NCBI GenBank assembly: GCA_029964075.1
Contig: CM057142.1
Location: 1,813,770 to 1,877,769 of the forward strand
DNA from: Patiria pectinifera
Taxonomy: Eukaryota; Echinodermata; Asteroidea; Valvatida; Asterinidae
Direction: 5' to 3'
DNA length: 64,000 nt
The notes under the pieces are model-generated. The model was not told the DNA's origin, ran no database searches, and saw only the letters and a list, made by a program, of their open reading frames with translations. The translations under genes were made by a program, and so were the position numbers. Every line of letters begins with the position of its first letter. The first letter of the stretch is position 1. This document shows, piece by piece, positions 15,001 through 21,000 of this stretch.

Positions 15001-18000
15001 GTTGTGCGCTCGCACTCACGTTGGTTTAGGACGAGCCTTACAATGCTTGCTTAGTTCTTGTTTTAACAGGCAAATTACTGCATAAGGTCAGAAATTACTA
15101 TGAGGCAATGTGCTTCCTGTAGCGTGTCTTAAATAATGACGTCTTATGAGCAGGCTTGTTTGTTAGCTTACTCTTACGTACAAAAACTTTGTCGGTTCAT
15201 TTGTTATTTGTCCGTAGCTCGAACTGAATATATAAGTGCAGAGAGTAATTACACCATAACCTCTACCGGCTACCCGTACTACACTTATCCCAACAATGCT
15301 GATGACATCTGGTATCTTCAGACTGACAAAGGTCGTAGAATCCAGCTCACATTCGTTTCCTTTCGACTCGAGTCTGGGTACGACTACCTGAAGGGGGGCG
15401 ATGGTGAAGACGCATCCACAGCGCAGCTCTTTTCCCTATCTGGGAGCGTGATACCAACTGCCAAGGTTTCATCAGGAAACAAGATGTGGCTGAGGTTCAC
15501 TTCAGATGGCAGTGTCACCTTACCAGGGTTCAAAATTGTCGCTCAAAGCGTCTCAATGACAGGTACTTACATCTGGTATGACCAGATCTATCCTTGATGG
15601 ATTTAGAATTTTAAGTTATATTTGGGCATACAGATTAAGTGTTCACCATTATTACAATAATAAGATTTAACTAGAAAACAGCCCAACTTGCAACTCCAAC
15701 TCCAATCCCAGTCAAAAATGAATTAGGAAGTATAACTAATATCTACATACGTATAGGTTACACACCACGTTACGTCCAATGGTGTCCTCTCTCTACCTCC
15801 ATTCATTATGTATAGGCAGGCACTGGGTCACCAGCGATGGGTTAAACAGGAGGCATGTTTCAGCTAAAATCTGTCAGGATGATTTTTAGGGAATTAAATC
15901 GTTTTGTATTACATATACCTCCCCCAAGGTGCTTTAAGTTATCATTTCAGAGACGGGTACACATTTACTCGGTATAACATAAACATTTTCAGCCACCGTT
16001 TCAGAAACAAAGAAGAGCGCATCCTGCGATCTCACCAACGTTTCTTAACGACACTTGAGTCGCTTTTGTATTATGCTAAAATGGTGTTTTGTATACGACG
16101 TACAAAGGATACTAAAACGTCCAAAAAGAAAAGACGACATATGTCATTGTTTCAAAAACTGTCAACATTTTCATTACTTTTTTGATTTACCCAAATTCCA
16201 GACTACACCACTGAACCATCCTACTACGGCTGCAGTTCATATGAGTGGCGATGCTATTACAACGGTCAATGTATTCAAGACTACCAAAGATGCAACGGAT
16301 ACTCAGACTGCTACTATGGCGAAGATGAATACAACTGTTACGGTAAATGTTCAATGCAAAACGTTTGTTCAAGATGGGACACAACATAACTGTCCAACTA
16401 AGGGAATAAATATGTGCTTGGTTGTTGTTGAACGTACTTTTTTAATTGCGGTTAAGCACGTATTTATTCCCATTCATAAATACCTTTCGGCCAAAAACTC
16501 AAAACAACTGAAAACCCACCGACTTTGCTTAATTTTTTGGCAAACACCCCTCTAGCTGTGTTTATGGTATGTACTTTTCACGAGTAAAACAAAAAAATCC
16601 TTATATGGAGATTGGTGCGCGCGTGGCGCATACCTCGCGATGTGCCGCAGAACGCAGCGGTGCCGGTGTAGTGTGAACTCAGAGCTCCAATATACATACG
16701 GACACATTATTAGTAGTGCACATGCCTCAGTGAAGATAATAAGGAAATCGACTGGTCACGTGTGAGGCTTCAACCAATAACAGGGTAAAAGGGACCAGAT
16801 TTCCTAGGAACCCAAATTCATGTAACACCAGGAAAAAGTGTTTAGACCCGGTTGGTGTTTTATCAACCGTATTAAACCACCGACGTGACGGTCTCTCGAC
16901 CAATCGGAATGGTTTAACTGTTTTAGATATTTATGAATATCTTTTCAACGACACGGTTCATTTCCAGACTACACCACTGAACCAGCCTTCTACGGCTGCA
17001 GTTCATATGAGTGGCGATGCTATTACAACGGTCAATGTATTCAAGACTACCAAAGATGCAACGGATACTCTGACTGCTACTTTGGCGAAGATGAATACAA
17101 CTGTTACGGTAATTATCCACAACAAAACAGTTCTCTAAAGTTGAAACACACTCCAAGTTTGATACATAATTCATCTCACTGTCTTTTCCTTTTCAGACTT
17201 CACTACTGAACCATCCTATGGCTGCAGTTCATATCAGTGGAGATGCTACTACAACGGTCAATGTATTCAAGACTACCAAAGATGCAACGGATACTCAGAC
17301 TGCTTGTATGGCGAAGATGAATACAACTGTTACGGTAAATATCTACAACAAAACGTTTTCCTAAAGTTGAAACATACTTCAAGTTTTGTCAATAATACAT
17401 TACGCACAAGACACCCATGCCACCCATTCATGTAACACCAGGAAAAAGTGTTTAAAATTCGGTTGATGTTTTATCAACCGTATTAAACCACCCACGTGAC
17501 GTTCTCTCGACCAATCGGAATGCTTAAACTGTTTTAGGTATTTATGAATGTCTTTTAAACGACACTGTTCATTTCCAGACTACACCACTGAACCACCCTA
17601 CTACGGCTGCAGTTCATATGAGTGGCGATGCTATTACAACGGCCAATGTATTCAAGACTACCAAAGATGCAACGGATACTCAGACTGCTTGTATGGCGAA
17701 GATGAATACAACTGTTACGGTAACTATCTACAACAAAACGTTTTCCTAAAGTTGAAACATACTTCAAGTTTTGTTAATAATACATTTCGCATAAGCAACC
17801 CATGCCACCCATTCATGTTACACCAGGTAAAAAAGTCTTTAAAACCGGTTGGTGTTTTATCAACCGTATTAAACCACCCACGTGACGTTCTCTCGACCAG
17901 TCGGAATGCTTAAACTGTTTTAGGTATTTATGAATGTCTTTTAAACGACACTGTTCATTTCCAGACTACACCACTGAACCATCCTACTCCGGCTGCAGTT

Positions 18001-21000
18001 CATATGAGTGGCGATGCTATTACAACGGCCAATGTATTCAAGACTACCAAAGATGCAACGGATACTCAGACTGCTTGTATGGCGAAGATGAATACAACTG
18101 TTACGGTAACTATCTACAGCAAAACGTTTTCCTAAAGTTGAAACATACTTCAAGTTCTGTTAATAATACATTTCGCATAAGCAACCCATGCCACCCATTC
18201 ATGTTACACCAGGTAAAAAAGTCTTTAAAACCGGTTGGTGTTTTATCAACCGTATTAAACCACCCACGTGACGTTCTCTCGACCAGTCGGAATGCTTAAA
18301 CTGTTTTAGGTATTTATGAATGTCTTTTAAACGACACTGTTCATTTCCAGACTACACCACTGAACCATCCTACGGCTGCAGTTCATATGAGTGGCGATGC
18401 TATTACAACGGCCAATGTATTCAAGACTACCAAAGATGCAACGGATACTCGGACTGCTACTATGGCGAAGATGAATACAACTGTTACGGTAATTATCTCC
18501 AACAAAACAGTTTTCTAAAGTTGAAACACACTCCACGTTTTGTACATAATTCATCTCACTGTCTTTTCCTTTTCAGACTTCACCACTGCACCATCCTATG
18601 GCTGCAGTTCATATCAGTGGAGATGCTACTACAACGGTCAATGTATTCAAGACTACCAAAGATGCAACGGATACTCAGACTGCTTGTATGGCGAAGATGA
18701 ATACAACTGTTACGGTAACTATCTACAACAAAACGTTTTCCTAAAGTTGAAACATACTTCAAGTTTTGTAAACAATACATTACGCACAAGCCTACGCACA
18801 AACCACTCATGCCACCCATTCATGTTACACCAAGGAAAAAAGTGTTTAAAACCGGTTGGTGTTTTATCAACCGTATTAAACCATCCACGTGACGGTCTCT
18901 CGACCAATCGGAATGGTTTAACTGTTTTAGGTATTAATGAATGTCTTTTAAACGACACTGTTCATTTCCAGACTACACCACTGAACCACCCTACTACGGC
19001 TGCAGTTCATATGAGTGGCGATGCTATTACAACGGTCAATGTATTCAAGACTACCAAAGATGCAACGGATACTCTGACTGCTACTATGGCGAAGATGAAT
19101 ACGACTGTTACGGTAAATATCATCATGGGTGGCATGGGTGGCTTGTGCGTATAAAGCGCTCGCCTCTCACCAAGGTGACCACGGTTCGAATCCGGGCCGC
19201 AGATCACAAGTGAGTAGAGTTGTGCGTTGGTTCTCTCCTGTGCCAAGAGGGGTTTTCTCCGGGCCTTCCGGTTTTCCTCCCTCCGGAAAAATCAAACACT
19301 TTCGATCTCAGGCTGTGCTCCGTGGTAATATATGGGTCGATGTGGCCGGCAGCCATAGGCGCCTTTACGTGCCAGCGGCCCGACCACGTTGTAGCCGCGT
19401 CCTTCGCAATTCAGCATACCAGCTGACACATCTTTGCAACTGTCTTTTAAAACACACTTTTCATTACCAGACTACACCACTGAACCATCCTACTACGGCT
19501 GCAGTTCATATGAGTGGAGATGCTACAACAACGGTCAATGTATTCAAGACTATCAACGATGCAACGGATACTCTGACTGCTACTATGGCGAAGATGAATA
19601 CAACTGTTATGGTAACTTATCACCTCTGCAGATACGTGTATTTTATTGCAGTGACGTGACAAAACGTACTTTCTAACATTAATTTGACTTAATTTGTAGT
19701 ACTTCAATCCATTTATGTCGATTTCACCATATATTCATAGGAAACACCGTGGCGCCCACTGTAGACGTCAATCTACCCTCCTCCGTGATAAGATTAGTGA
19801 ATGGCAGCACCATCTATGAAGGCAGAGTAGAGGTGTTTGTCAACGGTTCCTGGGGAACGGCTTGCAGTCATTCCTGGGGCATGGACGATGCCCGTGTCGT
19901 CTGCAGACAGCTCGGCTATGGACCAGCCATTAGTGCCCCGCGTGACGCTACCTATGGCGCGGGTGTTGGTCCTATTCACCTTGTACACGTCTACTGCAAC
20001 GGTTCGGAAAGTTCGATTCTCGACTGCACATCCTATTACTCTGAACACTGCTACCACAGTGAAGATGCCGGTGTTGAATGTACAGGTAATGCAAACTTAT
20101 TCGTCCAATCACCGCCAAACTTTATATAAAAATTGGCCAAGAAACTTTTTCCAACAAATTGCACTTTCCACCCGAAAAGATGTATACCAGTCGTATTCTC
20201 AAGTTGCTTTGAAATCGAGGACTTCAATATTAACGATTCGCAGGAATTTATTGAAAATAAGTCTTTTCTCAAACTGGCGTTTTATAGATGCACTGTTGCT
20301 CGTCAATAAAATCAAATTATTGTAGGCGTCTGCAACACTCTGGAACACAAAAGGCTTTTGTTGTCGTTGTTGTTGTTGGTGATGTTGGTGGTGGTGTTGT
20401 GTTTGCTTACTAAACAGGTCCGCCATGCAAGTAGACTGGTTCCCGATCCGTATATTTATCGATACTGATGGGAGAAAGCCAGTCTACCGATCGAGAAGTT
20501 TATTATTGTCGAGTGTGGACTTGCATTCATGCGCTGTTCGTCATTTTGAACCGTGTTTGAACTGACAATGTGACATCTCAGACGCAGTAATGAAACTGAT
20601 GTCTGAGTTTGTGTTACAACTTAAACTAAGTTGAAGCACTATACAGTGAGTTTATATCAAAAGTCTTTTTTTAATTCCTAATCCACGAACGTTTCATTTT
20701 CTGTTACTTTAGCTCCATTAACAGTTCGTCTCGTTAATGGAGGCTCTTTGAACGAGGGTCGAGTTGAAGTTTTCTACCAAGGCCAGTGGGGTACAGTCTG
20801 TGATGATGGATGGGGCATTAATGACGCTCATGTCGTCTGTCGCATGCTTGGTTATCCTTCTGCATACCAGGCGTGGGGCAGCGCCCACTTCGGTCAAGGA
20901 TCAGGTCCGATCATGCTTGACAATGTTATAAGCTGATTGCTATCATAATGGCTGGTTTAGTCATAACTGTGGGCATAATGAGGACGCAGGAGTTACTTGT

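Follow-up and report, generated by a model that had tools for sequence, protein, structure and literature searches.

An LDLa exon array of Patiria pectinifera as part of a probable DMBT1-like CUB-LDLa-SRCR gene with a second, inverted copy

Results

The LDLa array and the gene around it

The array of LDLa exons in the window (the whole 64,000-nucleotide stretch of DNA analysed here) is, in the explanation that we judge probable as a whole, part of a probably secreted, DMBT1-like mosaic gene of CUB, LDLa and SRCR exons, present in two inverted and rearranged copies. Length variation is observed between these two copies in one assembly.

On the plus strand, as are all features described here, the array comprised exon 1 (16202..16342), exon 2, type A of an A-B pair (16968..17108), exon 3, type B (17197..17334), exons 4 (17579..17719) and 5 (17965..18105), which are A/B hybrids and near-duplicates of each other, exon 6, type A (18351..18488), exon 7, type B (18577..18714), exon 8 (18972..19112) and exon 9 (19471..19611). 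Exons 1, 8 and 9 were placed by exon map and Pfam, exons 2, 3, 6 and 7 by these together with diagnostic sites, exon 4 by diagnostic sites and Pfam, and exon 5 by exon map, diagnostic sites and unit alignment. Each was 138 or 141 bp long, preceded by AG, followed by GT and of phase 1-1 (9/9), and each scored above the curated cut-off of the Pfam LDLa profile (PF00057; 30.9-33.2 bits vs 24.1), bearing out the nine class 1-1 exons of the initial annotation. The spacing it described was likewise exact, with start-to-start distances of 386 bp between exons 4, 5 and 6 and with the pair 2-3 recurring as 6-7 at offsets of 1383 and 1380 bp. Chance repeats were ruled out by a repeat scan of the window, which returned a 186-nt unit in nine copies that are 73-100% identical to the reference copy, and ARAGORN found no tRNA in 19000-19500. 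A search for the GFP family gave no hit in this genome, nor in any of the 14 controls, and so carries no evidence.

Nine exons is the extent of the array, but the gene holds four further LDLa exons (13 in total), a CUB exon and SRCR exons, in the order predicted signal peptide, CUB, nine LDLa, SRCR, broken SRCR, three LDLa, SRCR relic and LDLa. A candidate signal-peptide exon with a phase-1 donor (5974..6025) was predicted by hydrophobicity and donor scan as one of four candidates, and a 57-bp stretch identical to this region lies upstream in the second copy (C14:2081264). The first intron contains a LINE-type retroelement (9567..12670; Pfam Exo_endo_phos endonuclease and RVT_1 reverse transcriptase) that is absent from the corresponding site in the second copy, where the matches jump from 9566 to 12671. 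The CUB exon (15218..15562; phase 1-1; Pfam E 2.7e-18) is in phase with LDLa exon 1. SRCR exon 1 is intact (19765..20085; Pfam E 1.8e-27), and SRCR exon 2 (20713..21007) is broken in the window copy by a net 23-bp loss and an early stop; all three of its counterparts in the second copy are intact. These are followed by LDLa exons 10 (21469..21606; Pfam, ORF 33.0 bits), 11 (21696..21830) and 12 (21920..22054), the latter two detected with a profile derived solely from this gene, and by a divergent LDLa exon 13 (24451..24552; Pfam LDLa 31.8 bits and alignment). A third SRCR at about 23700..23990 has one exon-like frame and was rejected as an exon; it appears to be a relic, because its stop codons recur in the second copy. 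Pfam scans covered selected ORFs, and CUB and SRCR boundaries were the nearest phase-consistent AG and GT, chosen by script.

From the sequence, we infer that the CUB, LDLa and SRCR exons belong to one transcript, the product of which is probably secreted by way of the predicted signal peptide. The window-copy model stops in SRCR exon 2 unless that exon is skipped, when the joined exons are open for 829 codons. In plus-strand ORFs of at least 40 residues from 24552 to 33800, no transmembrane segment exceeded the hydrophobicity threshold. At about 24.8 kb, a Thr-rich stretch is at most a tentative candidate for the last exon.

In an alignment of the 13 LDLa exons, all six cysteines were found in exons 1-12, with the first and third missing from exon 13. 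D36, D42 and E43 were invariant and the acidic module end was kept. Exons 1-12 have Asn instead of one usual Asp, at what we take to be the first Asp of the LDLa calcium site, with D36, D42 and E43 presumably also serving as ligands. Among solved structures, the best sequence matches of exon 4 were LDL receptor class A modules of LRP2, VLDLR and LDLR.

A second, longer copy on the same scaffold

The second copy is inverted and lies about 235 kb from the window copy on the same scaffold. It has 11 LDLa exons in the array vs nine in the window, and 35 vs 13 in total. Its 44-exon model runs to 2485 codons without a stop, and AG and GT flank every junction, the CUB and SRCR splice sites being the phase-consistent ones picked by script. 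It holds a tandem duplication of CUB and LDLa exons (two CUBs) and three blocks of SRCR-SRCR-LDLa(n), giving six open SRCR exons, where the window has one intact, one broken and one relic. A-B exon pairs number four in the second copy (611-624 bp) vs two in the window. In two aligned blocks, introns and flanks diverged at 59/3541 sites (1.67%) and exons at 8/1644 (0.5%; p = 0.0003). A secreted product of variable length, as initially proposed, is plausible because array length differs between two closely similar copies; the difference in array length is what was found, and the variable secreted product itself stays at plausibility. Match positions alone point to further arrays on C10, C6 and C12.

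Hybrid exons and limited homogenisation

Diagnostic sites showed that hybrid exon 4 carries A-type letters up to column 65 and B-type letters at columns 112-113. In the 386-bp hybrid units, the 226 bp that separate matching points of exons A and B are missing, the full exon pair being 612 bp. The two units sit between the window's two A-B pairs, each sharing two letters with the third unit of the second copy alone. Units 4 and 5 differ at 4/386 positions (1.0%), two of these being non-synonymous exon changes. The proposal that unequal exchange or conversion had acted was thus upheld, in that exchange or deletion between repeats shortened units from 612 to 386 bp and left A/B hybrid exons.

Rapid homogenisation of the array, the other part of that proposal, did not hold. 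Across six full repeat units, 33 of the 61 variable columns grouped by position (first with first, last with last), 12 of them making up one shared 12-bp insertion, and one column grouped by copy. Matching full units across copies were the closest (1.5% and 1.1%, with the other 13 full-unit pairs at 2.0-5.6%), so that repeats were not more alike within than between copies, as they would be in a concerted array. The single copy-grouping column, C in both window B exons and T in all four second-copy B exons, reads as a trace of homogenisation, and units 4-5 are a recent exception to its general lack.

The statement that introns were as similar as exons was correct for exons 4 and 5 (2/141 differences, with 2/245 between introns 4 and 5), but in pair 2-3 vs 6-7 the introns were more divergent (exons 6/276, introns 25/332; pooled Fisher p = 0.003; by part, p = 0.009 for exons and introns 3 and 7 and p = 0.19 for exons and introns 2 and 6). 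Pooled dN/dS was 0.20 over 36 pairs of window exons, and the exons are under purifying selection.

Tyrosine-rich modules

The LDLa modules are rich in tyrosine, at 21.2% for the window copy vs 22.1% for the second, a feature missing from the initial annotation, and contain two and one lysines, respectively. Ten distinct ordinary LDLa cores from eight fetched loci of the same genome had a pooled tyrosine content of 2.6%, about eight times lower.

Discussion

The two copies are, in our assessment, probably paralogues, and we think it unlikely that they are both haplotypes of one locus, kept in the assembly and scaffolded side by side in opposite orientation. Were they so, the 13 vs 35 LDLa exons would be direct allelic length variation. 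The 500-N join between the copies and their low divergence outside exons would fit such a duplicate, since allelic differences in a marine animal of high diversity could also reach 1.7%, and C22 and C6 have paired arrays, too, with numerous match scores that are equal, which are possibly duplicates of the same kind. A whole-contig haplotype duplicate was nevertheless set aside as the leading reading because the sampled outer stretches appeared single, the second copy is surrounded by N-free sequence (1887001-2087769) and a flank lies at opposite ends of the gene in the two copies: beyond 34.3 kb, the window no longer matches the near side of the second copy, and its flank at 34.3-37.3 kb reappears on the far side. 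One stretch of 3-4 kb was searched on each outer side with 40 candidates scored per search, and no second long match was found for bases 1-2600 of L041 or of L044. That the array is instead an assembly artefact, with 386-bp units expanded or collapsed, is very improbable. Units 4 and 5 are alike enough to raise it, but the differences that remain between them include the two non-synonymous changes, the 13 non-matching full-unit pairs are distinguishable, the second copy, placed independently, repeats the matching positions, and a hybrid junction within exons 4 and 5 exceeds mere change in copy number.

Given the stop in SRCR exon 2, the window copy may be non-functional. That it is a decaying pseudogene, its array without product, is a reading to be taken seriously, though we lean against it: the 23-bp net loss and stop, the LINE insertion in intron 1 and the shorter arrays speak for decay, whereas the 13 LDLa exons, the CUB exon and the first SRCR exon are all open with AG and GT, the 829 codons stay open once SRCR exon 2 is left out, and exons diverge less than introns, part of which constraint on the second copy alone may explain.

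In the explanation that we favour, the four-pair state would be the older one, shortened by non-allelic exchange or by deletion between repeats. Whole exons or fused halves can be gained or lost in frame because the LDLa exons are of phase 1-1, a phase in which the CUB and SRCR exons are spliceable as well. The product would be a secreted, multivalent binder made of many calcium-binding LDLa modules, a function suggested by the kinds of domain. Exon number would govern its avidity and length, much like the number of SRCR domains in DMBT1, and the window copy would either be decaying or yield a shorter product. Two predictions are that array length should differ between haplotypes and that, as phase 1-1 exons tolerate fusion, exchange events can lie within exons.

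The sea urchin fertilization-envelope proteins SFE1, SFE9 and proteoliaisin carry LDLa repeats, and we know of no SRCR domains in sea urchin envelope proteins; the likeness of these proteins to the present gene is one of description. They are reported to be secreted at fertilization and cross-linked at tyrosines by ovoperoxidase, which joins tyrosines in adjacent chains, SFE1 and SFE9 included (PMC3528131). With this precedent, and with the tyrosine excess over ordinary cores in both copies, the array might encode a structural, cross-linkable matrix protein rather than an immune or recognition molecule. We regard this as distinctly unlikely, SRCR domains not being known from the envelope proteins and the tyrosine content tracing back to one amplified module; even so, modules this rich in Tyr make cross-linked secretions or coats a possible use beside immunity. 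The available parts of studies on sea star footprint proteins (PMC9382459) and the sea cucumber gonad proteome (PMC11361572) gave no LDLa or SRCR lead. More speculative still is a family of secreted CUB-LDLa-SRCR proteins with Tyr-rich LDLa arrays that change length by hybrid-exon exchange, in which exon number would determine how long an extracellular coat or defence polymer is and how much it can cross-link or bind, with structural alleles segregating at several loci at once.

No entry naming this gene or such an array was seen among the listed titles and abstract openings of a literature search. The six cysteines of exons 1-12 and the acidic end are common to the LDLa modules of LRP2, VLDLR and LDLR, which differ in that the tandem exons here are near-identical, Tyr-rich and have Asn for what we take to be the usual first calcium-site Asp. 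In the starfish Acanthaster, 56 genes annotated as DMBT1-like have 1-13 SR domains, some with LDLa, and combine a signal peptide with SRCR and LDLa across many genes of one genome (PMC10448888); the part of that report available mentions neither a long Tyr-rich LDLa array nor a difference in exon number from copy to copy.

The nearest precedent appears to be the SRCR copy-number variation of DMBT1 (salivary agglutinin, hensin) in human and other vertebrates, which is secreted and has CUB and repeated SRCR domains, with tandem domains variable in number, as here. DMBT1 is reported to have 7-20 SRCR per molecule, with a CNV1 mutation rate of 0.7-2.7% per generation (PMC4851238), and its short allele to fail to bind a Streptococcus mutans strain bound by the long allele (PMC9038570). 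Its tandem SRCR and CUB domains have counterparts in the six open SRCR exons of the second copy and in one CUB exon in the window copy and two in the second. The present gene differs in that LDLa is the most amplified module, vs SRCR in DMBT1, and in that CUB is N-terminal, vs after the SRCR array (PMC4851238). DMBT1 varies in populations, whereas the variation here is between two copies in one assembly. The gene may offer a counterpart among invertebrates to the variation in domain number of DMBT1, one where individual exchange events are readable, because diagnostic sites mark the hybrid exons and the second copy gives the unshortened state.

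Structure of the LDLa array and of the gene that contains it

All nine LDLa exons (16202-19611, + strand) were located where the initial annotation had placed them, each preceded by AG and followed by GT, each of phase 1-1, each 138 or 141 bp in length and each passing the Pfam LDLa cut-off. The spacings it had reported were likewise reproduced, with exons 4, 5 and 6 starting 386 and 386 bp apart and the exon pair 2-3 recurring as 6-7 at 1383 and 1380 bp; a repeat scan returned a 186-nt unit in nine copies. Its description of introns as similar as exons held for the 386-bp units of exons 4 and 5 (2/141 exon and 2/245 intron positions differing), but not for pair 2-3 compared with 6-7, where 6/276 exon and 25/332 intron positions differed (pooled p = 0.003; not significant for the exon 2-exon 6 part alone, p = 0.19). 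Part of the long intron (17811-17939) is a dispersed repeat, matched elsewhere in the genome at 82-88% in a genome search, which is present in every 245-bp intron and therefore probably predates amplification of the array. Intron 8 contains a SINE-like stretch (19113-19470) with what we take to be a tRNA B-box-like motif; ARAGORN called no tRNA there (19000-19500 scanned).

The array forms part of a larger gene on the + strand, comprising a candidate signal-peptide exon (5974-6025, a prediction), a first intron holding a LINE-type element (9567-12670), a CUB exon (15218-15562), the nine LDLa exons, two SRCR exons (19765-20085 and 20713-21007), three LDLa exons, an SRCR relic (near 23.7 kb) and a last, divergent LDLa exon (24451-24552), with 13 LDLa exons in total. 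LDLa borders were given by the sequence, and CUB and SRCR borders are the nearest phase-consistent AG and GT, chosen by script. A net 23 bp are missing from the second SRCR exon, which contains an early stop that ends the gene model after 733 codons; leaving this exon out keeps 829 codons open. Of the six cysteines, the first and third, disulfide partners in ordinary LDLa modules, are absent from the last LDLa exon. No transmembrane segment was found downstream of it by a hydrophobicity scan of + strand ORFs of at least 40 residues (24552-33800). Further along, an ORF at 48700-49512 (+) encodes a C-type lectin domain and has a PAN match that falls slightly short of its cut-off.

A second, inverted copy differs in exon number

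A search of the same genome with the units of exons 4 and 5 gave at least 153 matches, and among the matches listed the strongest outside the window lay in an inverted copy of the gene, also on scaffold C14 and some 235 kb distant. Self-comparison showed interrupted homology extending from left of the window as far as 34.3 kb; its counterpart on C14 spans 2087769, where the fetched piece ended, to 2039211, and BLAST identity in the main matching stretches was 90-98%, gaps counted. Across two aligned array blocks, gaps left out, introns and flanks differed at 59/3541 positions (1.67%) and exons at 8/1644 (0.49%; p = 0.0003).

The second copy reads, in order, predicted signal peptide, CUB, LDLa, CUB, 11 LDLa, two blocks of SRCR-SRCR-LDLa8, one of SRCR-SRCR-LDLa6, the SRCR relic common to both copies and a divergent LDLa (35 LDLa, six SRCR and two CUB exons). 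When joined, its 44 exons form a stop-free frame of 2485 codons, and every junction has AG and GT. The extra CUB and LDLa pair results from a 6.08-kb tandem duplication (C14:2067404-2079548, 99.46% identity) that does not include the signal-peptide exon.

Exon number thus differs between closely related copies, whether these are alleles or paralogues. Low divergence and a 500-N join lying between the copies would suit alleles, but the second copy is internal to N-free sequence, and the window flank at 34.3-37.3 kb was found again at 95% beyond the far end of the second copy (C14:2107805-2110876), the first part of this flank also having an 84% match at C14:2206174. Moreover, with 40 candidates scored for each, the first 2600 bases of two C14 stretches outside the copies gave, at C14:1790000, only the self match and a few short 72-80% matches and, at C14:2135000, the self match only. 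On this sequence evidence the two copies are probably paralogues. The recurring flank also holds ORFs (34275-35433, - strand) with weak F-box and WD40 matches under Pfam cut-offs.

Other tandem arrays matching the LDLa exon, known from match positions alone, were found at C10:8487759-8515925 (at least 28 matches, with seven successive periods of 3106-3117 bp), C12:82903-98199 (at least 27 matches, 23 of the 26 gaps being 227-238 bp) and C6:16955129-16969865. Two family arrays about 460 kb apart (C6:21763073-21766812 and C6:22223418-22227158) have near-equal spacing and match scores; either the locus was duplicated recently or the assembly contains it twice. On C22 another LDLa module forms two tandem runs of opposite orientation, with many equal scores and some 235 kb between them (28919805-28932550, -, and 29154129-29171392, +); the modules read were Tyr-poor.

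Full units group by position rather than by copy

The array had initially been described as rapidly homogenising, in which case repeats inside one copy would be the more alike. Among six full units, however, 33 of the 61 variable columns grouped units by position and one by copy. The first units of the two copies differed at 9/611 positions and the last at 7/621, compared with 2.0-5.6% for the remaining 13 full-length pairs. Of the 61 columns, 12 distinguish the pair of first units and 21 the pair of last units; a shared 12-bp insertion supplies 12 of these 21. The sole copy-separating column (C in both B-type exons of the window, T in the four of the second copy) is a trace of homogenisation. 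Between the copies, six matching exon pairs had 0-2 base differences, and a seventh (window exon 6 and its counterpart) differed mainly by a 3-bp indel. Since dN/dS pooled across 36 pairs of window exons was 0.20, the likeness of the exons owes much to purifying selection.

Exons of types A (2 and 6) and B (3 and 7) are told apart most clearly at alignment columns 4, 42, 48, 56, 112 and 113. In the second copy the A-intron-B-intron unit, 611-624 bp long, occurs four times; in the window array two such full units flank a pair of 386-bp units. The sequence of exons 4 and 5 is A-type up to column 65 and B-type at columns 112-113, and the difference between unit lengths (612 - 386 = 226) equals one 138-bp exon plus an 88-bp intron; judged from these letters and lengths, each is therefore an A/B hybrid from which the 3' part of A, the short intron and the 5' part of B are missing. 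As their units differ at 4/386 positions, a single event followed by duplication or conversion would be the simplest history.

Composition and possible function

Tyrosine makes up 21.2% of the 591 LDLa-module residues in the window and 22.1% of the 1600 in the second copy; lysines number two and one respectively. A small set of 10 distinct other LDLa cores from eight fetched loci of the genome, most of them resembling one another, has a pooled value of 2.6% tyrosine (351 residues). Because of this composition we keep open a structural, cross-linked role for the protein; passages of one report describe tyrosines of sea urchin envelope proteins as cross-linked by ovoperoxidase (PMC3528131).

The predicted secreted protein would carry many calcium-binding LDLa modules, its avidity and reach perhaps rising with module number, and with symmetric exons this number could drift through exchange while the frame is kept. 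One starfish genome has 56 genes annotated as DMBT1-like, some with LDLa (PMC10448888), and an opsonin role is cited for starfish SRCR proteins (PMC13409769). DMBT1 itself, with 7-20 SRCR domains per molecule (PMC4851238) and binding described as varying with allele length (PMC9038570), offers a precedent for variation in module number, although here the most amplified module is the LDLa.
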